DNA from: Planctomycetota bacterium
GTDB lineage: Bacteria > Planctomycetota > Planctomycetia > Pirellulales > Pirellulaceae
Direction: 5' to 3'
Assembly: GCA_029979005.1 (NCBI GenBank)
Contig: JAPOIJ010000028.1
Location: forward strand, 1 to 36,615
DNA length: 36,615 nucleotides
In this document: positions 3,338 to 35,470 of the stretch, in pieces
Position numbering within the stretch: position 1 is the first letter of the stretch
How the letters are laid out: every line of letters starts with the position of its first letter
Translations under genes and position numbers: made by a program
Notes under the pieces: generated by a model
Told to the model about the DNA's origin: nothing
What the model saw: only the letters and a program-made list of their open reading frames with translations
Database searches by the model: none

Positions 3338-4354
3338 TTAAGCCAAAACCGTCTTGTTCGGCTCGCCTCGTAATTCCTGAACATATCGCGGAACCGCATA
3401 GCCCGGTAAGCAGGAACGCAGTTCAGAAATCAATTGAAGACCTTTGTTAATATCAACCTCGAAATGCGCTGCTCCCCTCACGGGGTCGAGTTGATGCAAA
3501 TAATACGGCAGTACGCGACAGCTCAGCAACCGCTCGCTCAAGTCTTTCAGCGCTTCTAATGAATCGTTGACTTCGCGCAGCAACACCGCCTGATTCAGCA
3601 ACAAAGCACCGGAATCAGCAATCTGCCCGAGCGATTGCTCTACTGACAAATCGAGTTCGTTGGCGTGATTTGCGTGAATCACCACAATCATCTGACAACG
3701 CGAATTAGCTAGAATTTCTAGCAAGGCATCTGTCACCCGCTGAGGGATCATGATGGGTAAACGCGTGTGAAAGCGAATACGTTTGACATGCGTTATGTCA
3801 TCAATTTTTGAAATCAAACGAGCTAACGAATGATCGACCAGCGTCAACGGATCCCCTCCACTCAAAATAACCTCATCAATCGATTTGTCAGCGGCAATTT
3901 CAGCGAGCGTTGGCTCCCATTGAAGCATTGACTTTGGTGCTTGCTCGTACGGAAAGTGCCGGCGAAAACAATAGCGGCAGTGCACCGCACACGCTCCCGT
4001 CGTCACCAACAACACTCGCCCTTTGTACTTCTGGAGCATTCCGAAGGACTTCGTCGCATCCGATTCACCGAGCGGATCTGTTGAGAAATGAACTGGAGAT
4101 TCCATCTCATTGCCACTTGGCCATATTTGGCGAAGCAACGGATCTCCCGTGTCAGACCGATTAATTCGACTCAAATACGGCAAGGGGGCAAAAACTGGAA
4201 ATTCAGCCTCTGCCGCATGCTGTAGCCCCCCTTCCTCGGCTAAACCGAGAGCCTCCTGCAATCCCCGCAGGTCTCGAATAGCCCATTTCATCTGATCTTG
4301 CCAGGTACCGGAACCGGCGCGGACAAGATCGGTTTTATTCGCTAAAATTGTCAT
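3338..4354 (-). CDS. epmB: EF-P beta-lysylation protein EpmB (lysine 2,3-aminomutase family)
   Basis: Radical SAM, PLP-dependent aminomutase of 338 residues, the length of EpmB rather than of the longer catabolic KamA enzymes. The [4Fe-4S]/SAM motif is Cys122-x3-Cys126-x2-Cys129, within ACAVHCRYCFRRHFPYE. The barrel motif EVILSGGDPL follows, and the C-terminal PNKTVL carries Lys334, which by family alignment should hold PLP. EpmB converts (S)-alpha-lysine to (R)-beta-lysine, which EpmA ligates to elongation factor P. The gene is divergent from efp with 98 bp between start codons, which strongly supports EpmB over a general lysine aminomutase. No epmA is in this window. The ATG has no convincing SD. 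Confidence 0.9.
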   Translation of the reverse strand: MTILANKTDLVRAGSGTWQDQMKWAIRDLRGLQEALGLAEEGGLQHAAEAEFPVFAPLPYLSRINRSDTGDPLLRQIWPSGNEMESPVHFSTDPLGESDATKSFGMLQKYKGRVLLVTTGACAVHCRYCFRRHFPYEQAPKSMLQWEPTLAEIAADKSIDEVILSGGDPLTLVDHSLARLISKIDDITHVKRIRFHTRLPIMIPQRVTDALLEILANSRCQMIVVIHANHANELDLSVEQSLGQIADSGALLLNQAVLLREVNDSLEALKDLSERLLSCRVLPYYLHQLDPVRGAAHFEVDINKGLQLISELRSCLPGYAVPRYVQELRGEPNKTVLA

Positions 4355-4452: not shown

Positions 4453-5019
4453 GTGGCTTATAAAACAAGTGATTTTCGAAAAGGTCTCCGTGTTCAAATT
4501 AACGGTGAACCGTACATCATGACGAGCATGGAATTTAAGAAACCCGGAAAAGGGAGTGCTCTCTATATCTGCAAACTGAAAAACTTACTTCGTGGCACCA
4601 CGCTTGACCGAACCTACAAAGGTGGCGACTCACTCGAAGAAGCCGACATCGTAGAAACGGATGTTCAATATCTGTATAAGCAGGGAACTTCATACGTCTT
4701 TATGGATAAAGTGAATTTCGAACAATACGAACTGTCTGCCGAGCAAATTGGTGAGGACTGGCGATATCTAAAAGACAACATGGATTGTCAGATGACGTTT
4801 TTTAGTGGCAACCCAATTATCATGACTCCGCCCAATCACGTTGAGTTGCGGGTCGAGTTTTGCGAACCCGGTGCAAAGGGAGACACGTCGACAAATGTCC
4901 GAAAACCGGTCAAAGTAGAAACCGGCGGAGAGTTCCAGACTCCCATTTTCGTGAATGAAGGCGACATCATCAAAATTGATACGCGAACCGGCGAATATGT
5001 CGAACGTGTCAAACACTAG
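4453..5019 (+). CDS. efp: Translation elongation factor P
   Basis: Full-length EF-P of 188 residues, which relieves ribosome stalling at polyproline stretches. It has an N-terminal KOW-like domain (1-64) followed by two OB-fold domains. The modification loop KKPGKGSA places Lys33 where E. coli EF-P has the beta-lysylated Lys34, which fits the divergent epmB. The C-terminal domain ends with the conserved GDIIKIDTRTGEYVERV. The start is GTG at 4453, preceded by AGGA seven bases upstream, and the product begins M-A-Y-K. Two clues, the epmB neighbour and the conserved Lys, indicate EpmAB-type modification rather than rhamnosylation or 5-aminopentanol modification. Confidence 0.96.
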   Translation: MAYKTSDFRKGLRVQINGEPYIMTSMEFKKPGKGSALYICKLKNLLRGTTLDRTYKGGDSLEEADIVETDVQYLYKQGTSYVFMDKVNFEQYELSAEQIGEDWRYLKDNMDCQMTFFSGNPIIMTPPNHVELRVEFCEPGAKGDTSTNVRKPVKVETGGEFQTPIFVNEGDIIKIDTRTGEYVERVKH

Positions 5020-8330: not shown

Positions 8331-11300
8331 CTACTCGATTGGCGGCCGAGCTTGCCGAATGACAGCTCCTTGATTCTCGCTCATCATGAGGATTGAGAAC
8401 TTGACGATACCATCCAAACTGGTATTACTCTGCGAGACATAGTCAAATCGCCCACGAAGGTCGGTGTATCCATCTTTATGAAAGACCACTTCACCATTCC
8501 CTGACTTGGCATAAACCTTCACGTACGTCTTCGCAAGCGGCTTCCCAGTCGACGCTTCGCTGACCTTCAACTGTCCAAATTTTTCCACCAGTTGAATATC
8601 AAGCGAATGAGCAAAGTAAGGCATGGAACGGGTTTGATCTCCGCCCACCAACTCCACTAAGACATTTTTATTCTGCATCTTAGGCGGCAGTTCAAATTCG
8701 TGATTTCGCTTACCGCCCACTGGAGCAGTCGCATCACCATCCTTTTTATCCAACTCAATATTCTGTGAAAAATTGGGGCGAATCAAAGAAAATCCATCCA
8801 GATTATCCTGAGCAAACGGACTTCGACTGAACAACAGTTCAACGTCCATTTCGTATAAATTCACAGTCATTTCGTCGAGATTTTGGAAGTTGATTTTGGC
8901 AACCCCGCTTTCAACATTGAAATCAAAACTAGGCGCTCGATCGGCCATCTCAGTTTGCACTTCACCACTGTCTTTCGAATTGACCGTAATGGCAGACGCA
9001 CCGTTTATTTCATCGACCTGCGCGAGAATCTGTTTAAAACGGTTGGCCCACCTAGGAACAGGATGGTCCGCCCAAACCGCAGCCTTTTCAGCCGCTGATT
9101 TTGGATCGGCACGATACATATCGAGGTAAGCATCACAGTAATCATACTGAAGCTTCGAATCCAAATTTACTTTTGAGACCTTACCAAAATGCGACATCGC
9201 ATCTTCAATACGATCCTGCAGCAATAGGTAGTAAGTCAGAGCTAACTGGTCGTCATCTGTTAAGGTTCGACGATTGGAAAGCACCGTCAGTAAGCGATTG
9301 TATTGACTCGCAAATTCGGGATTCAGGATTTTCCGAGTCCCCCCTAACTGGTGCGCTCGTGCGTTGACCAATGGAGAATACTCCTTATGGGAGTACCAAT
9401 TTCGCTCAACTGGATCTATCGTTAGCAAATCCGATTGAAATGCCACTCCGCATTGACCAATCAGTTTGTTCGCATGCGATAAAAATTCTCTAATCCCACC
9501 TGAGTCATTATGTTTAACCGCATACGCCCACAGAACATTATCGTAAGCACACCGAGCACGAAGGGTCTCGATAGTTCTTTCAAAAAAGGCTTTATCCTTC
9601 ATTCGAAATGCGATGTCCGACAACTTAAGACGCAAAATATTTTCACGATTTAAAAAATCAATTACATCATCGTTTGTTCCATTCTGTGATACAAATTCCC
9701 ATGAAGTTTTATCAACCTCCGCTGGCTGATCGACCACCTTAAATGCAACCGGGTCGGCAACCGCAATGACCCTTTCTTTTGCCGAGACATGTGCCGGGTA
9801 GTGCTCAAAATCACCTGCCTCTGGAAAATAAAACGCATATTCAAACGTCGCGGTACTGAACGCTTCAAGACTCATTAGGACGGTTCTAGTTTCTCGCGAG
9901 CCACTCGATGTCATTGAACCACTCGGAATCTGCATTAATAATTCAACATTCATTGGTGTTGAAGTTGGATTAGTCAGAACCACCTGAGATCCATAAAGCG
10001 TATGCGCCAAGAAATCACCATTGACGAACTTATCAAAACGCACGCCGTTCTCGTATCGATAGCGATCATTCTTTTGAAAGAAATTTTCGCTTACAAGAAC
10101 CGTTGAGTTTCCTCGATCAAAAATAGCATCTTTCACTTGTTGATGTAAAACGATCGTTGGCCCAGCCGCTTTATAGGTCATCGTATTATTTACAAACTCA
10201 AACTTCTGCTCCGGCTCTTCAAACGGCAAATCGAGGACAGCCAACGCTAACATCATTTCAGTAAAATTCCGCGTGGACTCGGCAAAATAGGGCGAAAGAA
10301 ATACTCCATCTCGATGGCTTGCATAATCTCGCCAAAATCGATTGCTCGAAACCAATGCTGAATTTTGCGCTTTTGGGACTAACTCGTAATAGTTGTTTTC
10401 CATCCACTCCATCGTCGGCGCGACTCGGGTATACAGCCTGGCTGCGTTACTTCTGGCACGTGCAAGATCCTCAGACTGGTTAAACCACATTTTATCCATC
10501 AGCTGTTTTTCGAGTTGACGTTTTCCCCCAGCCTTGGATTTCTCCTTTTTGCCTGATTCCTCCTCGTCCATCTGGTCATCCTGCTCGAGATCAAAGGCAC
10601 CATTTAGTGACTCCGACTCAGCTTCGAAATCTACATCCGGACTTCGTGTTCTACCCAGGAACGATCTTCGGCCATCCGCCTTCCCTGAGCCCATGCCTCT
10701 ACCCATTTCCAGACCGCCACCACCGCCGCCAAAACCGCCGCCGCCCAGTCCGCCACTCGCCGTTGGTACCGGCCGATTCTCGGAATTTGCTAGGCTGGCC
10801 ATCCTGTCTTTTGCCTCATCCAATCCACGACTGCGAATCGAACTATCAAACAAACGATCCAACTCAGATCGTGGGGTTGGGTTTAAAAAATAGGTTTCGT
10901 CAATATTTCGGGTGATATCATCTTTTCGTTGCTCTAGTCGCTGTGAGAGCAATATTTTTTCGAAGGCATTTAGTCGCGAATACTCCCAAGGTTTCGCAAA
11001 TCGATTCAGATCCTCTTTCAGAAACCAAAGATCCATAAACGTGCGTTCTCGTTTATTTTTCAAAAACGGCAAAATTACAGATTCAAAGAATTCATAATCT
11101 TTCTTCATCAAGAAAAAATTAAGTTCGTGACATGCGAATTCGGAATAAAGACTCTGCTTTTCAATCGGCGTCTTTTTACTCCAAGCCAGAATAAAATCAA
11201 ACTTCGCCAAATTTGTTGCTGGATTCAGTGCGAGCATAAGCTGAAACGCGTCCCCCAGGTCATCAAACTGCTGGAATTTAGCGGATACTAAATCTTCGAT

Positions 11301-14300
11301 AACGAGTGTATCACCGGCCAACAATTTCTCCATCTGTTTCGATTGGGAGAAATGCTGAGCCGGGTCTAAGGCTTTCACTAAACGGGCATCCCGCGGAGCC
11401 AGCTCGCGAGCAGGGAAATCAACATTGCGCTGAACCGTCTCAAATACATTGACTGCAACAAATCGGAGATGCTGATTGGGCCCGAGTTTATCTCGATCAA
11501 TTGCGACAATCCCATTTTCGTTGGGACGCAGGTTAGCCAACAAGATGGAATCATCACCGAGATAGTCTAGATTTGCGAAATCGGCATCAGTTTCAGACTT
11601 CGCATCTTTACGTTCGGAGCGAGCTCCTGAGCCGCCAAGACCTCCCCCCACACCTCCAAAAGCTTCGCCAGCATTTGCAGTTTGTGCGTTATTGTCCGTC
11701 CCCTTCACCTCCCAGGGATTGAGAATTAAAGAAGGACGCTCCAACATATTACCGGGAAATTTCATCGCATATTTCCGATTTAAAATATATTGGTATTCAT
11801 CACCAATTATTCGTCCCTCTTTATATACGGACCGGCGATTGCCAGGCTGATATCCCCAGGGTTCCATATCTCCCACTCTCGAAAATTCGTCAAATGCATT
11901 GAAGGCAGCCTGATAACGATTAACAAACACATGTACTCTTGTGTACTTATTTGAATTTTCTAATTGGATTCGAATTTTCTCCTGATTCGAACTAATTCTC
12001 GAAATTTGAAGGGCAGGGGAGGTGCGATTTTCGAGATGACGTTTTTCACCAACAATCATATCCCCCGCTTCAACTCCCTTAACCACTCGAATTTTTAACG
12101 ACTGATAATTTCGACCGGATCGTTGGCGAGGGTAGGTCAATCGCAATTCGTAATCACCTCGGGGCAAATCAGCGATCCGAATCAGCCCGTTTTTAACTTT
12201 CACCAAATCAAACCAATCCTTTACAAAAGAATTGCGTCGAATTTCCAGCAGCGAGATAAAATTCCGATCAGCTTTTGTCACTTCAGCAGGGGCGGGCAAT
12301 GTAACCTCCTCACCTACCTGTACATGCATTGTCTGAACATAAGTTTGATCTTGAGTCCCAAGCGCCCATGTTTTTTCCTTGCTGCTGCCACGATTTTCAA
12401 CCGCCAGTTCCACGACTCCGGCAAGCCGTCCAAGCCCCACCAAACCGTCAGCATCAGATTGAAGATCCGCGATGACTGGATTCTTAAACTCACTTTTTGA
12501 AACTTTAATCCGCACGGGTTGCCCAGGTCGCCGCTCACCATTTTTTCCGAGAATCTCTAAAAAATAACCTGATTCTGTTGGCAACAAGTGCACATCTTCG
12601 ATCGTGTCTGATTTATCAATTCCATTAAACTGATAACTCCGCACGGCCGTCATCCGCCGAGACTTATTCTCACTAACAACTTCTAGATCCGCGGAGAGTT
12701 CGAGGGAAACGGAACTCAAACGGGGTGGAACAACGAACTCACAAACGGTTTCCACTGCCTCACTGAGCTCTAAACCGTCTATTACTTTTTTGGTTGCAAT
12801 CCCATCTAGATCTGTGGCCGTAACGACTAACTTCGGGGATTCAAGCATGGAGACTGGCACCGGGTTTCCACCCACAATTTTCAGCGAAGGGCGGATTAAC
12901 ACCTTGGCTTTGTTGCTTCGTGTCAAACTCTCCCGGTCTAAATAAATAGCTGCTTCAAATTGATAATTCTCTCCCACGTGGTTGAAAGGGCGGAGAGAAC
13001 TGAAGTCTCCCTGCGTCACCACCGCCTTCGCAATACCGGGTTGGGTCGAAAACGGGAGCATAATTTTCCCGTCGTCATCGTGTTCATAAAGAGAGCCATC
13101 CACCCATAAGTCAGCATCTTTGACAACCTTGCCAGATTCATCCGTCACGGTAAATTGCTGGCCTAAAGGAGTCACCGAAGCCGAGAAATGCAGACGCCCC
13201 TTACGGATTAGTGCCCGACTGCTTTTTCCCTGAGCAATAAAATCCACGACATAGACACCTCGCTTCTGCATTTGCGGAAACTTGAATTCACGCCGTTGTC
13301 GAATTGCGGGAGGAGATTGATACGAAAAAGTCTCCTCATAATTTGGTACCAATCCATCAAGATTAATATCTGTATCTACTTCCTTCCCGTTGGTCCGATA
13401 GTAATTCCCCGTGTTAATTTCGAAGATCTTTACGATCAACTTGGGGACGTTCTTTAGATGCAACGACAACGAGACATCGTCATTCACAGAAAACTGTTCT
13501 TTATTATCGGCCGCAAATTCAATATCCACCCGCTCGAGAATCTGTTTGTACTGATCTGGAGAAAGCTGGGACGCCCATTGTTCGGCATCGCCGATCCCAT
13601 TAAGAATTTTCACCATGGCAAATTGTTGCCCGAGAAAAGTCTCTCGCACGTAGGGGGTAAATTTCGAGACCCCCTCAGCGTCTCGCAAAAAATGGTGCAA
13701 GTAATCCTTAACTAAACCTTGATCATCCGTTACCGGCGGCAACATAATCCGATCCGAGTAGTTGGCCCGCAAATTCGCGATGGTCTGGCTCTTTTTATTT
13801 TTCAAAAGGACTGGATTGATATAAGCGACACTTTTTGGGAGCTTAAGGTACTCCACAAACAAGTCCAAGTCATATTTCCCCTCGCTCCGATCAAGCTCGA
13901 GTAGACGATACAGTACGCAAGCTTTGAGCGAGTTAAAATTAGCATTGAGAGGCGTTACAAAACTCCTCAACCGCTCCAAATACTTCCGATGCTCTGACGG
14001 ATCCGTTGTCCAATCTACATCTTCAGAAGGGTAGAGTTTTTTTAAATAGATATCGACAAAACGATCGATTGTTTTCGATTTTGGATACCGCTTGGCAAGT
14101 TCATCCATTTGCTCAAGCGTGAGCATTTGATGAATACGCATTGAGCCAAATCCTTCGCTGTACCGTTCGGTCAAATCCGCAGCAATCAATTCAACTAAAT
14201 TTGGAAAATCCGGATACTGCAAACGCTTAAGTAGATCTCGCCGTTTGGCTGCGTCCAATTGACTTGGAGACAGCAACCTCAAACCTCGCTCTGTAAATCC

Positions 14301-14786
14301 GCCAGTCAGCTTGGATGACTTTAAGGCCGACTGAATCATCCGGTCATTAGAGATTAGTTTTTGATCAAACTCAGTTGGGAAATTCTGTTCCGCCTGCGGC
14401 AATCTTTGCCGGTGTGCAAAATAGAGATTCAATTCCTTAGTAAGGAAATCTAGCGTTTCTTGCGGGTTACTGTTGTATCTTAAAAGAGCCTGGCGATTCC
14501 GTATCACTCGGTAATTCGGTTGTTCACCGAGCCGCTTTCTCCATTTATCGAGGATCTCATCAACCTTTTCATACTGTTCAAGGTTTTGAAAATGGAGTGC
14601 ATGGAAATAATAATAATCACTCGTGCCTGGTACCATTTTTTTCAAGACGGACTCACGGTCCGAGGACAGCACGAAATCTTCAAGAACGCCTAACTCTTGG
14701 CCAAACAGTTTCTTTTCGCCTGACGACGTTAGGAGGCCGATGAACACTGACAATACTAACGCGCTCTTAGTTAACCATCGCAGCAT
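8331..14786 (-). CDS. Giant exported macroglobulin-like protein with glycine-rich linkers
   Basis: 2151 residues from the ATG at 14786. The frame extends five codons to an ATG at 14801, but GGGAG lies six bases before 14786 and the signal peptide (MLRWLTKSALVLSVFIG, small residues after it) begins there. Residues about 30-430 look alpha-helical and repeat-like. About 430-1000 read as consecutive beta-sandwich domains, with segments such as VYVVDFIAQGKSSR and AAIYLDRESL that recall the MG domains of alpha-2-macroglobulins. No GCGEQ thioester is present. Two glycine-rich linkers occur near residues 1045 and 1355, and an acidic/lysine-rich segment lies near 1405-1430. A second macroglobulin-like and helical half follows, and the C-terminus has another beta-sandwich (about 2070-2140). 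It is probably extracytoplasmic. The function is unknown, and the macroglobulin relation is inferred. Confidence 0.85.
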   Translation of the reverse strand: MLRWLTKSALVLSVFIGLLTSSGEKKLFGQELGVLEDFVLSSDRESVLKKMVPGTSDYYYFHALHFQNLEQYEKVDEILDKWRKRLGEQPNYRVIRNRQALLRYNSNPQETLDFLTKELNLYFAHRQRLPQAEQNFPTEFDQKLISNDRMIQSALKSSKLTGGFTERGLRLLSPSQLDAAKRRDLLKRLQYPDFPNLVELIAADLTERYSEGFGSMRIHQMLTLEQMDELAKRYPKSKTIDRFVDIYLKKLYPSEDVDWTTDPSEHRKYLERLRSFVTPLNANFNSLKACVLYRLLELDRSEGKYDLDLFVEYLKLPKSVAYINPVLLKNKKSQTIANLRANYSDRIMLPPVTDDQGLVKDYLHHFLRDAEGVSKFTPYVRETFLGQQFAMVKILNGIGDAEQWASQLSPDQYKQILERVDIEFAADNKEQFSVNDDVSLSLHLKNVPKLIVKIFEINTGNYYRTNGKEVDTDINLDGLVPNYEETFSYQSPPAIRQRREFKFPQMQKRGVYVVDFIAQGKSSRALIRKGRLHFSASVTPLGQQFTVTDESGKVVKDADLWVDGSLYEHDDDGKIMLPFSTQPGIAKAVVTQGDFSSLRPFNHVGENYQFEAAIYLDRESLTRSNKAKVLIRPSLKIVGGNPVPVSMLESPKLVVTATDLDGIATKKVIDGLELSEAVETVCEFVVPPRLSSVSLELSADLEVVSENKSRRMTAVRSYQFNGIDKSDTIEDVHLLPTESGYFLEILGKNGERRPGQPVRIKVSKSEFKNPVIADLQSDADGLVGLGRLAGVVELAVENRGSSKEKTWALGTQDQTYVQTMHVQVGEEVTLPAPAEVTKADRNFISLLEIRRNSFVKDWFDLVKVKNGLIRIADLPRGDYELRLTYPRQRSGRNYQSLKIRVVKGVEAGDMIVGEKRHLENRTSPALQISRISSNQEKIRIQLENSNKYTRVHVFVNRYQAAFNAFDEFSRVGDMEPWGYQPGNRRSVYKEGRIIGDEYQYILNRKYAMKFPGNMLERPSLILNPWEVKGTDNNAQTANAGEAFGGVGGGLGGSGARSERKDAKSETDADFANLDYLGDDSILLANLRPNENGIVAIDRDKLGPNQHLRFVAVNVFETVQRNVDFPARELAPRDARLVKALDPAQHFSQSKQMEKLLAGDTLVIEDLVSAKFQQFDDLGDAFQLMLALNPATNLAKFDFILAWSKKTPIEKQSLYSEFACHELNFFLMKKDYEFFESVILPFLKNKRERTFMDLWFLKEDLNRFAKPWEYSRLNAFEKILLSQRLEQRKDDITRNIDETYFLNPTPRSELDRLFDSSIRSRGLDEAKDRMASLANSENRPVPTASGGLGGGGFGGGGGGLEMGRGMGSGKADGRRSFLGRTRSPDVDFEAESESLNGAFDLEQDDQMDEEESGKKEKSKAGGKRQLEKQLMDKMWFNQSEDLARARSNAARLYTRVAPTMEWMENNYYELVPKAQNSALVSSNRFWRDYASHRDGVFLSPYFAESTRNFTEMMLALAVLDLPFEEPEQKFEFVNNTMTYKAAGPTIVLHQQVKDAIFDRGNSTVLVSENFFQKNDRYRYENGVRFDKFVNGDFLAHTLYGSQVVLTNPTSTPMNVELLMQIPSGSMTSSGSRETRTVLMSLEAFSTATFEYAFYFPEAGDFEHYPAHVSAKERVIAVADPVAFKVVDQPAEVDKTSWEFVSQNGTNDDVIDFLNRENILRLKLSDIAFRMKDKAFFERTIETLRARCAYDNVLWAYAVKHNDSGGIREFLSHANKLIGQCGVAFQSDLLTIDPVERNWYSHKEYSPLVNARAHQLGGTRKILNPEFASQYNRLLTVLSNRRTLTDDDQLALTYYLLLQDRIEDAMSHFGKVSKVNLDSKLQYDYCDAYLDMYRADPKSAAEKAAVWADHPVPRWANRFKQILAQVDEINGASAITVNSKDSGEVQTEMADRAPSFDFNVESGVAKINFQNLDEMTVNLYEMDVELLFSRSPFAQDNLDGFSLIRPNFSQNIELDKKDGDATAPVGGKRNHEFELPPKMQNKNVLVELVGGDQTRSMPYFAHSLDIQLVEKFGQLKVSEASTGKPLAKTYVKVYAKSGNGEVVFHKDGYTDLRGRFDYVSQSNTSLDGIVKFSILMMSENQGAVIRQARPPIE

Positions 14787-14792
14787 GCTGAA

Positions 14793-14797
14793 CTCCC
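14793..14797 (-). promoter_or_regulatory. SD site that fixes the start of the giant gene
   Basis: GGGAG on the minus strand sits six bases before the ATG at 14786 and inside the first five codons of the longer reading. No SD precedes the outer ATG at 14801. The hydrophobic signal peptide also begins at the inner ATG. Confidence 0.6.
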
Positions 14798-14801
14798 ACA
14801 T

Positions 14802-15061: not shown

Positions 15062-15556
15062 ATGCTCTCTCGCAACCTCGATAGCCTCACCCCACTTGCC
15101 ACCTCGTGGGACGATCTCGCCTTTGGAGCCCCCACCATTATTGGCTTTTCGGAATTGTGCCGACACAGGATCGCCTCCTCGCTTCTCGAAACCGATGCGG
15201 CAGTTGACCTTAACCAAGTGCTTTCGATCGAAGCCAAAACGATTCTTTCGGCGGCTGGCAAACGCGGTACCATCGAAATTCGGGCGAACAAAGATTCATT
15301 CAACTCAGCTGAACGATTCCTAGCGGTTTGCGTCGAGTATGAGCTTGAAAAACGTCTACTTTTTCTACAAAAAGAGAACCCGGAACAGACAGTCAAATTC
15401 TTAGAGGGCTTTCGCCAACTCTGCCAATATGGCCTCGTCCTTCACCACCTCCAACGCGACTTTTCCCTGTCAGCTGCAGGCTTTGAATTCGCCAAATCGC
15501 TCAATGCAGAGGATTACGAATCAAGCTTAAGATTCGCATGTGAAATTGAACATTAA
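15062..15556 (+). CDS. Hypothetical 164-residue protein
   Basis: I do not recognise a family. The ATG is preceded by a strong SD, AAGGGG, six bases upstream, which argues that it is real. The protein has no signal peptide or membrane segment. It looks mostly alpha-helical, with a leucine-rich amphipathic C-terminal half (VCVEYELEKRLLFLQKE, then GFRQLCQYGLVLHHLQRDF) suggestive of a helical bundle or protein interaction. Three cysteines are scattered without a CxxC pattern. It is convergent with rplQ, and the hairpin at 15597-15629 lies 40 bp downstream and could serve both. It may belong to a lineage-restricted planctomycete family. Confidence 0.7.
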   Translation: MLSRNLDSLTPLATSWDDLAFGAPTIIGFSELCRHRIASSLLETDAAVDLNQVLSIEAKTILSAAGKRGTIEIRANKDSFNSAERFLAVCVEYELEKRLLFLQKENPEQTVKFLEGFRQLCQYGLVLHHLQRDFSLSAAGFEFAKSLNAEDYESSLRFACEIEH

Positions 15557-26670: not shown

Positions 26671-27316
26671 CTCTCCTCAATCGGTTTGCGTCGCTAAAAA
26701 TCCGACCGGTTACCGATTGTGGCTGAGTGCGTATTCTCAGACACATCAAATTCCGGCGGACGGCACAACGCAACCAGCCCCAAGCCCTCGCAGCCAATTC
26801 AACGGCGCAAGGCTAGACAAAATCAGGGATCAGTAACGTGTAACACAATGACAGTGCAAACAGCAGACTCGTCAAGCACCTGCCCGCTAACTCTTGATGA
26901 ATGAAAACTGTCCGACCATGAGCCAGACGGTAAAAAAACCAAGAGCGATAACTGTATTTAGACTTTCGAAAGACATGGATCTCTCCTCAACGGGGTAAAT
27001 AAAGATCCCTCCTTGAGTACTCACACACCATCCATGCGTATCAAGGGTATCGGAATTTCAACGAAAGAAAAATTAAAGAAAATCCTGCGCCCCATAGACC
27101 TTTCGCAGTCAACAACAACCAAACATTCAAAATTGTTTAGGTAATCCGCAAGCCTTTCCATCGGTGTTCTATACTTAAAAACAATGGCCTGTTTTTGGAC
27201 TTTATTATGCGATCAACTTACCTCAATCGGATTTAACTGGCTTGGCTGGACGGGCTTGGTCGATCAAAATAACGAGAAGATAACTCAAGACCGTCTATTT
27301 GAGCGAAAATATCTTA
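26671..27316. other. 646-bp region between the protease and Hsp70 genes
   Basis: It contains the 29-residue ORF at 26887-26976. A TATACT hexamer at 27170-27175 on the plus strand, about 140 bp before the Hsp70 start, could be a -10 element, but no good -35 is paired with it. An AAGGAGG on the minus strand upstream of the small ORF has no ATG/GTG/TTG start at a proper distance. No other gene is seen. Confidence 0.4.
26887..26976 (-). CDS. Probable small membrane protein, 29 residues
   Basis: The minus-strand ORF from ATG 26976 to TAG at 26887-26889 encodes MSFESLNTVIALGFFTV then WLMVGQFSFIKS. The SD TTGAGGAGAG (complement of 26981-26990) places AGGAG six bases before the ATG, better than most genes in this window. 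Residues 8-22 or so form one hydrophobic segment, with a Lys near the C-terminus, as in single-pass microproteins. It lies 216 bp upstream of the site-2 protease gene on the same strand and could be co-transcribed with it. Its being real is inferred from the SD, the hydrophobic character and the otherwise empty region. Confidence 0.45.
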   Translation of the reverse strand: MSFESLNTVIALGFFTVWLMVGQFSFIKS

Positions 27317-28858
27317 ATGAACGACACACCTATCAAACCCGCCGTTGGCATCGACCTTGGGACCACCTTCAGCGTCATTGCTCACGTAAATGATGTCGGA
27401 AGGCCAGAGACCATCCCCAACGCGGAAGGGGATCTGTTGACGCCCAGTGTCATTCTATTCGATGAAGATGAAGTGATTGTTGGCCGTGAAGCCGCAAAGG
27501 CGAAAGCAACTGAGTTAGAAAAAATTGCCGACTGTCCAAAACGCCAAATTGGAAACCAGGTTTACGACAAAGTTTTTGGAGATCGACGCTACCCTCCAGA
27601 AGCCCTGCAAGGCTGGATTCTGAATAAACTAAAACGTGATGCCGCGCGCGTGGCTGGGGATTTCGACGAAGCCGTCATCACCGTCCCTGCTTATTTCGAT
27701 GAAGTTCGCCGAAAATCAACACAGGACTCCGGCTTCATTGGAGGTCTCAATGTCCTCGACATTATCAATGAGCCCACGGCAGCCGCCGTCGCTTACGGTT
27801 ACCAAGCGGGGTGGATCGACCTTACCGGTAAAGTTGCCGAACCCATCAATGTGCTGGTTTACGATCTTGGTGGCGGTACGTTTGACGTGACTGTCATGGA
27901 AGTTGGAGTCAATCGATTTCGGACAATTGCAACCGATGGAGACATGCGTCTTGGCGGTCAGGACTGGGATCAACGTTTGATTGACCACGTAGCGAAAAAC
28001 TTCAAGGACAACTACGGAATTGATCCCACCGAAGATTCAACGGCACTTGGGAAACTGCTTCGCGACTGCAAAGATGCCAAAGAGACATTATCCTCTCGGT
28101 CAAAAGCGAGTGTCGAATGCGTTTTTGGGAGCTCCTCCATTAAAACGGACATCTCCCGTGAAATGTTCGAAGACATGACGCTGGACCTACTCGATCGAAC
28201 TGATTTTACTGTTAGACAAACACTCAAAGCAGCCAAACTGGCATGGACGGATATCGACAAAGTCATCCTCGTTGGAGGTTCGACTAGAATGCCAGCCGTA
28301 CGCGAGATGCTGACCTCACTTTCCGGACAACAGCCAGACACCACTCTCTCGCCGGATGAAGCGGTCGCTCACGGAGCAGCCTTGCGAGCGGCAATGCTGT
28401 CCAACCGTCACTCCAATGCTTTTGCTCCGAGTGAGATTAAAAACGTCAACTCACACACTCTCGGAGTGGTTGCTAATGAAGTCGAGACAGGGATCGCCAA
28501 AGTCGTGCCACTAATCCCTCGCAACACCCCCTTACCAGTTGTCGCTCGCCGTGTCTTTAAGACGCATCGCAAGAACCAGGAGTCAATTCTGGTGCAAATT
28601 GTGGAAGGGGAAAACAATACTCCGGAAGACTGTTCCCAACTGGGCCGCTGCGCTATCTGGGATCTACCAGACACCCTCGACGTTGGCACGCTGATTGAAG
28701 TTCGATTCGCTTATGAAGAGAACGGTCGATTAAAAATCAAAGTCAAAGTTGGCGGCACCACCCAAAAAGCATTCCGCTACGAAATCCAACGTCCGAACAG
28801 CCTCACCACTGAACAACTCGAGAGCTGGCGGGAATATATTTGCGAAACTGACGAATAA
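27317..28858 (+). CDS. Hsp70 family protein, short (no lid)
   Basis: 513 residues from ATG 27317. A TTG six codons earlier also opens the frame, but neither start has a clear SD. The actin-like ATPase domain is intact: GIDLGTTFSV (11-20), the phosphate-2 loop YDLGGGTFD (182-190), LVGGSTRMP (about 318) and LSPDEAVAHGAALRAA. A beta-type substrate-binding domain follows (NVNSHTLGVVANEV to about residue 480), but the usual alpha-helical lid and EEV-type tail of DnaK (about 640 residues) are missing; the protein ends soon after the beta sheet. No J-domain protein or GrpE is adjacent. It is probably a specialised Hsp70, paralogous to 33572-35470. Confidence 0.9.
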   Translation: MNDTPIKPAVGIDLGTTFSVIAHVNDVGRPETIPNAEGDLLTPSVILFDEDEVIVGREAAKAKATELEKIADCPKRQIGNQVYDKVFGDRRYPPEALQGWILNKLKRDAARVAGDFDEAVITVPAYFDEVRRKSTQDSGFIGGLNVLDIINEPTAAAVAYGYQAGWIDLTGKVAEPINVLVYDLGGGTFDVTVMEVGVNRFRTIATDGDMRLGGQDWDQRLIDHVAKNFKDNYGIDPTEDSTALGKLLRDCKDAKETLSSRSKASVECVFGSSSIKTDISREMFEDMTLDLLDRTDFTVRQTLKAAKLAWTDIDKVILVGGSTRMPAVREMLTSLSGQQPDTTLSPDEAVAHGAALRAAMLSNRHSNAFAPSEIKNVNSHTLGVVANEVETGIAKVVPLIPRNTPLPVVARRVFKTHRKNQESILVQIVEGENNTPEDCSQLGRCAIWDLPDTLDVGTLIEVRFAYEENGRLKIKVKVGGTTQKAFRYEIQRPNSLTTEQLESWREYICETDE

Positions 28859-33133: not shown

Positions 33134-33571
33134 TTCGTAGCCCCTCCAAAAATCTCAAAACAAAAATGCCGGATTAAAAATGAAAAACACCGGTCGGCTC
33201 AATTCGCACCGACCGATTTGCGATAACAAATTTGCGTCAACAAATCTTCGCCAACCGCCCGCATTAGACCCCAACCCTTCATTCGCGAGGATACCGATTT
33301 GCAGCTTTTTTTCATCATTGCCGTCAAAACAATTGGGAGCAACCGCCAGCAACTTAATTCACGAACTCAAACGAATCCTGCAAATACAGAGCCGAATCTC
33401 AATAAAATACTTCAAGAGTTTCTTCTCTCAGCTCCGCAGCAAACTCAGCCTATTTCCTGTAGTTCAGCAACGTGTTCAAGATAAAGTAAGCCACTTTGCT
33501 TTGAATCTGTAATTTTTGAGTTTACAATGGGATTTTCGATCGGCGAATTCCCCCTAACAAACCTAGCAATT
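33134..33571. other. Divergent region upstream of the second Hsp70
   Basis: Apart from the promoter candidate at 33501-33528 I see no gene. A 110-codon plus-strand frame at 33180-33512 is weak in composition and has no SD. Confidence 0.4.
33501..33528 (+). promoter_or_regulatory. Sigma70-like promoter candidate for the second Hsp70
   Basis: TTGAAT (33501-33506) and TACAAT (33523-33528) are 16 bp apart. Its predicted transcription start near 33535 lies after the outer ATG (33527), which favours the inner ATG (33572). Confidence 0.35.
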
Positions 33572-35470
33572 ATGGACAAACCTGAAATATCCGTAGGCAT
33601 CGACCTCGGAACAACTTTTTCAGCAGTGGCTCATATTGATAATGAAGGCAGACCCCTGACAATTATTAATAGTGAAGGGGAACTCACGACACCAAGTGCT
33701 GTTTTTTTTGATCACGATGCCGTAATTGTTGGTACCGAAGCAACTATTGCGGGGGAAAGCGACACTGACCGTCTTGCAAGAAATGCCAAACGAGACATGG
33801 GAGGCGCTCGCTATCGAAAAAAAATTCGCGATTGCTTTCTTCCACCTGAGGTCATTCAATCCCTCATTTTGAAACGTCTTAAAAGCGATGCGGAATTAAA
33901 GCTCGGCGAATTTACAAAAGCCGTGATCACTGTGCCCGCCTATTTCAATGAACCACGCCGCAAAGCCACACAGGACGCGGGGGAGCTTGCCGGGATCGAT
34001 GTGATTGACATCATCAACGAACCAACCGCCGCCGCGCTGGCCTATGGCGTTCAGCAAGGATTCCTCAATGCCCGAGGAGCCGCGAAAGAGGTTGAACGAG
34101 TTCTTGTCTACGACCTCGGTGGAGGCACCTTTGATGTCACGCTCATGGAAATTAAGAACTCCCACTTCAGAACAATCGCCACTGCCGGTGATGTCTATCT
34201 TGGCGGAATTGATTGGGATCATCGAATTTTTGACTTTGCAATGAAGGAATTCGAAACCAAGCATCAAATCTCGTTTGCAGATGACAACTCGCTTAAAGAA
34301 AAATTAATGAACCAGTGCATCCGAGCCAAAGCTTCTCTTTCGGCTCGCTCGCAAACGATCATTCGAATCGAGCACAAAGGGGAACGCTTTAAAATCGAAA
34401 TTACCAGAGGCCAGTTCGAGGAACTAACCAAAGACTTACTCGAACGCACTAAACTCACAACCGAACGTTTGCTGCGCGACGCAAAAACAGACTGGTCGTC
34501 AGTGACTAAACTCTTACTCGTTGGCGGCTCCACTCGCATGCCGATGGTCGCAAAAATGCTTGAGAAAACTTCCGGTTTAAAAGTCGATCGCACACTCTCT
34601 CCAGATGAATGTGTCGCCCATGGCGCGGCAATTTACGCAGACATCCTCATGAAATTCGGACAGGAAGCTGGAACCGGTATTTCAATTAAAAATGTGAACT
34701 CTCACGACCTTGGCGTTTTGGGAATTGACTCGAAAACCCAAACACAAAGAAGAAAGATAGTCATCCCGCGGAATCACAGCCTTCCCACCAAGGCTGCCCG
34801 AAAATTTCGAACGGCAAAAGATGGACAGACGCAAATCGTGGTAAGAGTTATTGAGGGAGGAACAGATACAGGGCAGGGGGCGACACTAATTGGTAAATGC
34901 ATTGTGCAAGACTTGCCCGCAGGCATTAAGCAAGGGACCGAGGTCGTCGTTTCCTTTAATTACCTTAACTCGGGAAGAATCGATGTCGTTGCAGAAATAC
35001 CTGAACTCAAAATCAGCGCCGACACAGCCATCAATCGCGCCGATGGCATGACCCGTGCAGACATACTTTCCTGGAAAGAAAAACTTGCCTCCAACACAGA
35101 CTTACTTGATCTAGCGGAACCGGCGAAGGATAGCAGCGCAGCAATCACACCTCCGACCCTTGCTTCGCCAACTGTCGAATCTTCAAAACGCTCCAACCCA
35201 CCCAAACCACCACGAGCAACCCCGGCTATCGTGCCCGCAATTCCCATGGCCGTGCCAGAAAAACCGGCTATCCCCGAAATAAAAATCACAAAGCCAAAAA
35301 CCAAACGGAAAATCGACATACCCTCGGAAGACGAAATGTTTGTATTTGAGGAAAGTTCACCAGCTACTGCTCCCGGAGACTCAGCTTTAGATTTCCTTAA
35401 TGACAACAAGCAACCTTCTGCAGGAGGTTCTGAGCTAGACGACTTTCTTGCTGACTTGGATCTCGACTAA
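33572..35470 (+). CDS. Hsp70 family protein with proline-rich acidic tail
   Basis: 632 residues from ATG 33572. The outer ATG at 33527 adds 15 residues but overlaps a promoter-like -10, and MDKPEISVGIDLGTTFS matches the other Hsp70 better. The ATPase domain carries VGIDLGTTFS, VYDLGGGTFDVTL, LLVGGSTRMPMVAKM and LSPDECVAHGAA. The beta-type substrate domain runs to about residue 510. Instead of a DnaK lid there is a proline/lysine-rich disordered region (about 525-600) and an acidic end, with ALDFLNDNK and ELDDFLADLDLD sharing an L-D-(D)-F-L pattern. The J-like membrane protein gene follows after 58 bp, so the pair is probably an operon. Confidence 0.9.
   Translation: MDKPEISVGIDLGTTFSAVAHIDNEGRPLTIINSEGELTTPSAVFFDHDAVIVGTEATIAGESDTDRLARNAKRDMGGARYRKKIRDCFLPPEVIQSLILKRLKSDAELKLGEFTKAVITVPAYFNEPRRKATQDAGELAGIDVIDIINEPTAAALAYGVQQGFLNARGAAKEVERVLVYDLGGGTFDVTLMEIKNSHFRTIATAGDVYLGGIDWDHRIFDFAMKEFETKHQISFADDNSLKEKLMNQCIRAKASLSARSQTIIRIEHKGERFKIEITRGQFEELTKDLLERTKLTTERLLRDAKTDWSSVTKLLLVGGSTRMPMVAKMLEKTSGLKVDRTLSPDECVAHGAAIYADILMKFGQEAGTGISIKNVNSHDLGVLGIDSKTQTQRRKIVIPRNHSLPTKAARKFRTAKDGQTQIVVRVIEGGTDTGQGATLIGKCIVQDLPAGIKQGTEVVVSFNYLNSGRIDVVAEIPELKISADTAINRADGMTRADILSWKEKLASNTDLLDLAEPAKDSSAAITPPTLASPTVESSKRSNPPKPPRATPAIVPAIPMAVPEKPAIPEIKITKPKTKRKIDIPSEDEMFVFEESSPATAPGDSALDFLNDNKQPSAGGSELDDFLADLDLD

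Follow-up and report, generated by a model that had tools for sequence, protein, structure and literature searches.

A 2151-residue exported planctomycete protein as a probable bacterial CAGE-complex subunit with macroglobulin-type folds

A gene of ~6.4 kb on the minus strand of contig JAPOIJ010000028.1, from a draft planctomycete genome (Planctomycetota bacterium, Pirellulaceae; assembly GCA_029979005.1; 5.06 Mb, 322 contigs), encodes a protein of 2151 residues that matches no family model, which raises the question of what this protein is and what it might do. The complete contig was analysed here and its 36,615 nucleotides are referred to as the window. An initial annotation, made from the sequence alone, had described an exported macroglobulin-like protein without a thioester and had offered either a surface or periplasmic scaffold or a protease trap of a new type as its function. 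Our best identification is a subunit of the CAGE complex, a kind of assembly known since 2025 (PMC12485934, cited here and below from part of its text), with scaffold and trap both remaining candidates.

The open reading frame (ORF; window 8331-14786, 2151 codons plus stop) is intact and free of internal stops, and an alternative ATG five codons 5' in the same frame would extend it to 8331-14801 and 2156 residues. A search of its own genome with the protein returned a single match, the gene itself, while the closest named relative, in a Mariniblastus metagenome-assembled genome (MAG; L064), shows 96% identity over the full length. Comparison of the gene with three congeners gave non-synonymous divergences (dN) of 0.018, 0.081 and 0.116 against synonymous divergences (dS) of 0.14, 1.1 and 2.1, and dN/dS ratios of ~0.13, 0.07 and 0.06, respectively, with synonymous sites near saturation in the last two. 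The gene is under purifying selection and constrained.

To describe the family we collected 144 related open frames in 138 loci, 102 of which were counted as full length, and after removal of one full-length frame with X the remainder was thinned to 82 sequences with <85% mutual identity, our protein included; this set underlies the conservation, linker-length, hydropathy and control-profile results. By a crude hydropathy test the N-terminus is hydrophobic in 73 of the 82, which supports the earlier reading of a signal peptide and an exported protein. Pfam and NCBIfam scans of the protein returned no families from either, and the same scan of 23 family members gave scattered weak matches only, in one to three members each. 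The best of these were Cut8 (E 0.0004) and CarboxypepD_reg (E 0.0019), which we read as chance or generic β-sandwich likeness. Likewise, searches of PDB sequences with the protein and with a 30-sequence profile returned chance matches only. Since no Pfam or NCBIfam model matched, routine annotation is likely to miss this family, though hundreds of species carry it.

Structure prediction, which had been proposed as a check, was run with AlphaFold2 on 82-sequence alignments as two halves, residues 26-1165 (N-half; mean predicted local distance difference test score (pLDDT) 86.8, predicted TM-score (pTM) 0.80) and residues 1000-2151 (C-half; mean pLDDT 78.0, pTM 0.69). Neither model is a pure tetratricopeptide repeat (TPR) solenoid. 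Together they show the helical regions and several β-sandwiches that had been anticipated, the former predicted at residues 34-418, 1177-1331, 1483-1517 and 1696-1950, and the latter at 421-1123, 1528-1685 and 1953-2146. The first linker is followed by the last part of a β domain, which ends at ~1123 and is succeeded by a short β segment and a helical domain up to 1331. The two models place the low-confidence stretch (pLDDT <50) differently, at 1039-1078 in the C-half and 1014-1042 in the N-half, and they therefore disagree around linker 1, where a short strand at 1024-1029 is confident in the C-half model only. The two Gly-rich stretches and the acidic/Lys-rich stretch, already noted as linkers and a hinge, are present and fall within the segments that the C-half model predicts with low confidence (1039-1078 and 1322-1433), and across the 82 sequences linker 2 varies from 41 to 154 residues.

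CAGE was described in a 2025 preprint as a hollow homotetrameric shell of ~1 MDa from Tetrahymena and Dictyostelium, with a CAGE1 subunit of ~250 kDa (I7MLD7 in Tetrahymena, AbpF in Dictyostelium) and a cavity of 600 nm3 (PMC12485934). Its homologues number several thousand, of which more than two-thirds are bacterial and commonest in the Planctomycetes-Verrucomicrobia-Chlamydiae (PVC) phyla, planctomycetes included, with a range that also reaches Thermodesulfobacteria; most bacterial homologues have a predicted signal peptide, while the eukaryotic ones generally appear to be without. For each of 15 CAGE1 domains the preprint also tabulates the residues covered and the class of secondary structure, in the order helical D1-2, β D3-10, helical D11, β D12, helical D13-14 and β D15, with D8-D11 discontinuous.

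We scaled the ranges of this table linearly onto the 2151-residue protein and summed a secondary-structure score. This gave 929, compared with 580 for the best of 2031 circular shifts of at least 60 residues and a maximum of 675 when the string was reversed and shifted freely, while shifts of 10 residues either way scored 891 and 866, as expected for a true register. Under the linear map the expected type of structure predominates in 14 of the 15 domains, and the only isolated strands found, at 1459-1463 and 1801-1804, fall near two of the three mapped segments of the three-piece D9. Because the domain-order score, these strands, the size and the distribution agree, we file the protein as a CAGE member, and from the predicted structure it is very probably a bacterial CAGE-complex subunit, an identification made through the published CAGE1 domain table rather than through eukaryotic sequence.

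Some observations pull the other way. The identification rests on the domain table, and no relative was found among the PDB sequences. A count of 14 domains is likewise attained by the reversed string when optimally shifted, and circular shifts reach 13, so the count proves little and only the summed score separates the unshifted register from the controls. D10 is the exception under the linear map, with 24 helix versus 19 strand residues, because its helical neighbour intrudes when the map is this crude. The best-listed rows of the fold search contain no CAGE entry, which carries no weight against membership. The likeness extends to length (2216 residues for CAGE1 and 2151 here, within a published span of ~1890-2418), to how the 15 domains, discontinuous ones among them, are ordered and sized, to the lack of Pfam domains, and to bacterial members in Planctomycetota, Verrucomicrobiota and Thermodesulfobacteria that mostly have signal peptides, in so far as the preprint describes them (PMC12485934). 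The difference is that our protein is bacterial and probably exported, and that the oligomer and cavity described for CAGE1 are here a prediction.

The distribution had been expected to be limited to planctomycetes, and this did not hold. Matches were found in 29 of 60 genomes of near relatives, with 18 of 27 in the same genus (one of them a fragment only), and in 64 of 294 genomes drawn phylum-wide, the counts of 29 and 64 including a few short matches near E 1e-4; in the phylum of an Opitutia record (L099), 19 of 194 genomes matched. Contigs taken from one genome per species yielded at least 571 confirmed relatives. By record title, and MAG titles may err, the 79 loci kept comprise 47 planctomycete, 19 verrucomicrobial, three Lentisphaerae, two Kiritimatiellae and two Hydrogenedentota loci, one each from Candidatus Ozemobacter, Desulfococcaceae and Methylococcales, and three without a taxon. 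The gene is thus patchy yet broad, occurring in several phyla and not restricted to planctomycetes, and the titles, including the one Desulfococcaceae, match the bacterial range given for CAGE (PVC plus Thermodesulfobacteria; PMC12485934). Most carriers (39 of 49 genomes) have a single match to the family, and a search of viral contigs and plasmids found no relative. One locus (L112, 1-8139) holds a tandem pair of CAGE-like genes, the first cut at the locus end, and the complete genome of Candidatus Uabimicrobium amorphum (L103, L115) carries the CAGE-like gene twice, together with four matches to serpins and five to the alpha-2-macroglobulin (A2M) domain. Limnoglobus roseus, likewise in culture, also has a relative.

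The macroglobulin likeness of the β parts is well supported by the models. With the N-half as query, the best 50 Foldseek rows were all A2M or complement proteins, partly as members of complexes, with a best E of 2.4e-12 and low query TM-scores of 0.09-0.19. VIA-align placed the N-half on Salmonella A2M (4u48) with Z 13.3 over 392 aligned residues at a root-mean-square deviation (rmsd) of 12.6, residues 416-1126 running in order along 156-1009 of that protein, and placed the E. coli NIE-MG1 fragment on residues 413-602 (Z 10.0, 179 aligned, rmsd 6.1). For the C-half, the best 50 Foldseek rows were complement proteins mixed with glycosidases, residues 1138-1686 aligned with E. coli A2M 1124-1653 (Z 11.3, 290 residues, rmsd 15.6; VIA-align), and a fragment of E. 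coli A2M from MG7 to the C-terminus gave Z 11.0 over 122 residues at 2.6 Å. The later helical part bears a weak resemblance to a thioester domain (TED). Our protein aligns in order with the Type I A2Ms of Salmonella (SaA2M) and, loosely, in its C-half, of E. coli (ECAM), but differs in that it lacks a thioester as well as any bait or A2M domain that Pfam recognises, and in its 460 extra C-terminal residues and N-terminal helical domain.

A sequence link was found to seven giant A2Ms (L177-L183), with open frames of 2672-2863 residues and a β-domain pair at both ends. All three giants that were scanned have TPR repeats, MG2 and A2M domains, two of the three also have a bait-region domain, and CxEQ is present in two of the seven. 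Family profiles matched the seven giants over residues 410-938 (E 7.8e-10, carried by the first β pair at ~410-600) and 1881-2118 (E 8.9e-11), and N- and C-terminal copies cross-matched between the CAGE-like family and the giants (E 3.9e-8 and 4.7e-4). Reversed-profile controls gave a best E of 0.28. The N- and C-terminal pairs of the giants are clear duplicates of one another (E 1.3e-23), while direct comparison of the N- and C-copies within the CAGE-like family is weak (E 0.0011); the C-terminal β domains of our protein appear to duplicate the pair at ~413-602. The giants and the CAGE-like family thus have in common a homologous β pair near the N-terminus and at the C-terminus, with helices before the first pair, and differ in that the giants scanned have recognisable MG2 and A2M domains, two with a bait region, and the CAGE-like family has none.

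Several results count against a macroglobulin origin or narrow its basis. Pfam gives no MG2, A2M or bait domain in our protein, and the only such match in the 23 members scanned was to bMG3, in one member (E 0.21). Of the seven giants, four were first noticed through weak matches to the CAGE-like family and three were picked by length; with only the latter, residues 400-700 gave E 3.2e-7 and 1930-2151 gave E 4.3e-9, and the two thioester-bearing giants by themselves gave E ~8e-6. Sixteen other bacterial A2Ms from carrier genomes were borderline (best E 8.5e-5; E 0.0098 for the seven with a thioester). The homology rests on the end pairs, with residues 640-1000 by themselves at E 0.0075 (0.027-0.037 with giants chosen differently), the N-terminal helices (25-430) at E 0.15 against the giants, and no sub-profile across 880-1960 below 0.047. 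Against TED, residues 1120-1560 gave no profile match and residues 1690-1960 no support (E 0.081). Homology is therefore seen in the sequence of the end pairs and in the fold of the MG string, and the case for the middle rests on position and a weak fold match. Taking both sides, we regard common descent of the CAGE-like family with A2M as highly likely, and the initial description as macroglobulin-like is borne out by the fold matches together with the end-domain homology. Neither a derivation of CAGE from A2M nor the gene neighbourhood described below appears in the preprint (PMC12485934), supplements aside, in so far as it is cited here, or among the literature matches listed.

The lack of a thioester, also part of the initial description, was confirmed in that our protein has no CxEQ; three of the 82 family sequences have one, at unrelated positions. 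The most conserved Cys is C1219 in the motif C-H-E-L (Cys in 64, Ser in 17 and Gly in one of 82), in which H and E are invariant and L is present in 81, and which precedes a helix in the TED-like domain. From the alignment, C-H-E-L is not a normal thioester motif. That C/S-H-E-L is a remnant of a thioester site stays a speculation, because Ser replaces the Cys in 17 of 82 sequences and no profile ties the domain to TED. Similarly, residues 1148-1331 may be CUB/TED-like by position, a weak assignment to which the profile search gave no TED support, and linker 1 would sit about where A2Ms have their bait region.

As an overall explanation, a bacterial CAGE subunit of macroglobulin descent that acts by non-covalent enclosure appears reasonably probable. 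The gene would yield a 240-kDa exported polypeptide that assembles, in the periplasm or paryphoplasm of a Mariniblastus-like planctomycete, into a hollow homotetramer. The family would descend from, or share an ancestor with, giant TPR-containing A2Ms, keeping macroglobulin-type folds and the end β pair with the thioester absent, and its action would be non-covalent, with proteins enclosed in the cavity. A fuller scenario, whose chances we put at slightly under even, is that CAGE, instead of being an independent invention, is a derived, thioester-less branch of A2M that arose in PVC bacteria from giant TPR-containing A2Ms with an NIE-MG1-like pair at both ends, became a constitutively closed cage, is exported in bacteria and was later cytosolic in protists. 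The likeliest specific role would be trapping proteases or shielding from them; a protease-directed role is tentative, and the eukaryotic CAGE partners reported in the preprint (actin, intraflagellar transport (IFT) proteins and a histone chaperone) suggest no such role (PMC12485934). CAGE is a megadalton shell of unproven function reported from planctomycetes to slime moulds, and if its subunit descends from A2M, the idea that the cavity traps or shields proteins can be put to the test, with cultured planctomycetes as a place to delete the gene and seek a phenotype.

The strongest competitor, which we hold somewhat unlikely, is a periplasmic container that would hold proteins, folded or unfolded, much as a chaperone does and with no link to proteases, a container role being among the preprint's own suggestions (PMC12485934). 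In its favour, the gene persists whether or not its host has serpins or A2M, the genome from which the window comes matched neither the serpin family (PF00079) nor the A2M domain (PF00207), no broadly conserved partner gene was seen, and the CAGE cavity of 600 nm3 would suit such a function. Nothing speaks directly against it; macroglobulin folds are known in cleavage-triggered protein traps, but a fold shows no function.

Considerably less likely is a thioester-less Type II A2M that traps proteases after bait cleavage, in the manner of MagD of P. aeruginosa, which is exported, has no CxEQ and traps protease without a thioester (PMC5764988, cited from part of its text). The MG string, the A2M fold matches and the variable, low-confidence linker near a split β domain would all fit. 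However, Pfam recognised neither A2M, MG2 nor bait domains in our protein, though three giants of other carriers or relatives were recognised at once, and the extra helical and β domains at both ends fit CAGE instead. Moreover, MagD is encoded in a six-gene operon (PMC5764988), whereas at the loci examined no conserved operon, mag-like or other, was seen around the CAGE-like gene, most of whose neighbours change from locus to locus.

A surface or periplasmic scaffold or coat without a cavity is very doubtful. The large size, the β-sandwich domains and the export signal agree with it, but the domain order matches that of a subunit known to build a closed shell, inspection by eye revealed no anchor to the cell wall or a membrane (no anchor-directed search was made), and the single match in most carriers and the patchy occurrence counted above suit a coat poorly. 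A solenoid built of TPR or HEAT repeats plus accessory domains has a negligible chance, as only 34-418 and 1696-1950 offer helical regions for it, while most of 421-1123, 1528-1685 and 1953-2146 is β and the N-half best matches A2M and complement proteins. The predicted features of the CAGE-like gene are collected in Table 1.

Table 1. Predicted features of the CAGE-like gene, in window coordinates.
Feature	Window position	Strand	Basis
N-terminal export signal, residues 1 to ~32	14691..14786	-	Hydrophobic stretch; cleavage site inferred by eye
Helical domains, residues 34-418 (CAGE D1-D2 equivalents)	13533..14687	-	N-half model and domain-table test
Macroglobulin-like β-sandwich string, residues 421-993 (CAGE D3 to first part of D8)	11808..13526	-	N-half model, Foldseek, VIA-align
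Linker 1, residues 1030-1078, Gly/Ala-rich, low confidence	11553..11699	-	C-half model, 82-sequence alignment
Residues 1148-1331, short β segment then helical domain (CAGE D10-D11)	10794..11345	-	C-half model, domain-table test
C-H-E-L site, residues 1219-1222	11121..11132	-	82-sequence alignment
Linker 2, residues 1322-1433, Gly-rich then acidic/Lys-rich, low confidence	10488..10823	-	C-half model
Second segments of discontinuous domains (CAGE D11, D10), residues 1483-1551	10134..10340	-	C-half model, domain-table test
β-sandwich, residues 1564-1685 (CAGE D12)	9732..10097	-	C-half model, VIA-align
Helical domains, residues 1696-1950 (CAGE D13-D14)	8937..9701	-	C-half model, domain-table test
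C-terminal β domains, residues 1953-2151 (CAGE D15)	8334..8930	-	Profile match to giant A2Ms, E 4e-11
KDGYTDLRGRFDY, residues 2104-2116, among the best conserved stretches of the family	8439..8477	-	Conservation within the family

A serpin gene (PF00079) lies on the same strand and directly downstream of the CAGE-like gene in three of 49 genomes (L099, L112 and L134), and in each case the serpin has the hinge EEGTEAAAATAV, of the inhibitory type, and a signal-like N-terminus, and is the sole serpin found in the genome. The L099 and L112 serpins are 82% identical and their CAGE-like proteins 51%, and the L134 serpin is not the closest relative of these two. The pair in L134 is flanked by two A2M genes; within this locus (307-22384) a sigma-70 factor (PF04542, PF08281) forms the start of the second A2M frame, as would result from a fusion or from read-through. 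A further 80 and 17 carriers added no more cases of adjacency, the genes being on different contigs or far apart, so that adjacency across contig ends is possible. At least four genomes occur twice in these serpin sets, which hold at most 142 distinct genomes in all. Unfavourably for a protease-directed role, the serpin stands next to the gene in only three of ~60 serpin-bearing genomes, and serpins are equally frequent with the gene (20 of 55) and without it (28 of 80). A general link between serpins and the gene was therefore dropped, the adjacency having found no extension and the frequency control being equal, and what is left is a lineage-limited association, noticed after the fact.

Across the 79 loci and the window, the neighbours of the CAGE-like gene are mostly not conserved and are shared mainly among close relatives, and no conserved partner was seen. 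The rpoA-rplQ, EF-P and 164-residue protein neighbours are common to close relatives only. Sulfatase and similar neighbours recur in few loci and were given no weight, and another recurring neighbour is presumably DUF1501-like; sulfatase and DUF1501-like families are common in planctomycetes. The gene for the 164-residue protein (window 15062-15556, plus strand), which matches no Pfam family, is divergent and lies 276 bp upstream of the CAGE-like gene, and it is kept in place at six other related loci (L060-L063, L065 and L066). Elsewhere in the window, two Hsp70-like genes on the plus strand (27299-28858 and 33527-35470; PF00012, E 2.5e-119 and 8.2e-113) lie <7 kb apart, and an EF-P-like gene (4453-5019) is divergent to a gene (3338-4354) that we take to be lysine-2,3-aminomutase-like and perhaps to encode its modifying enzyme.

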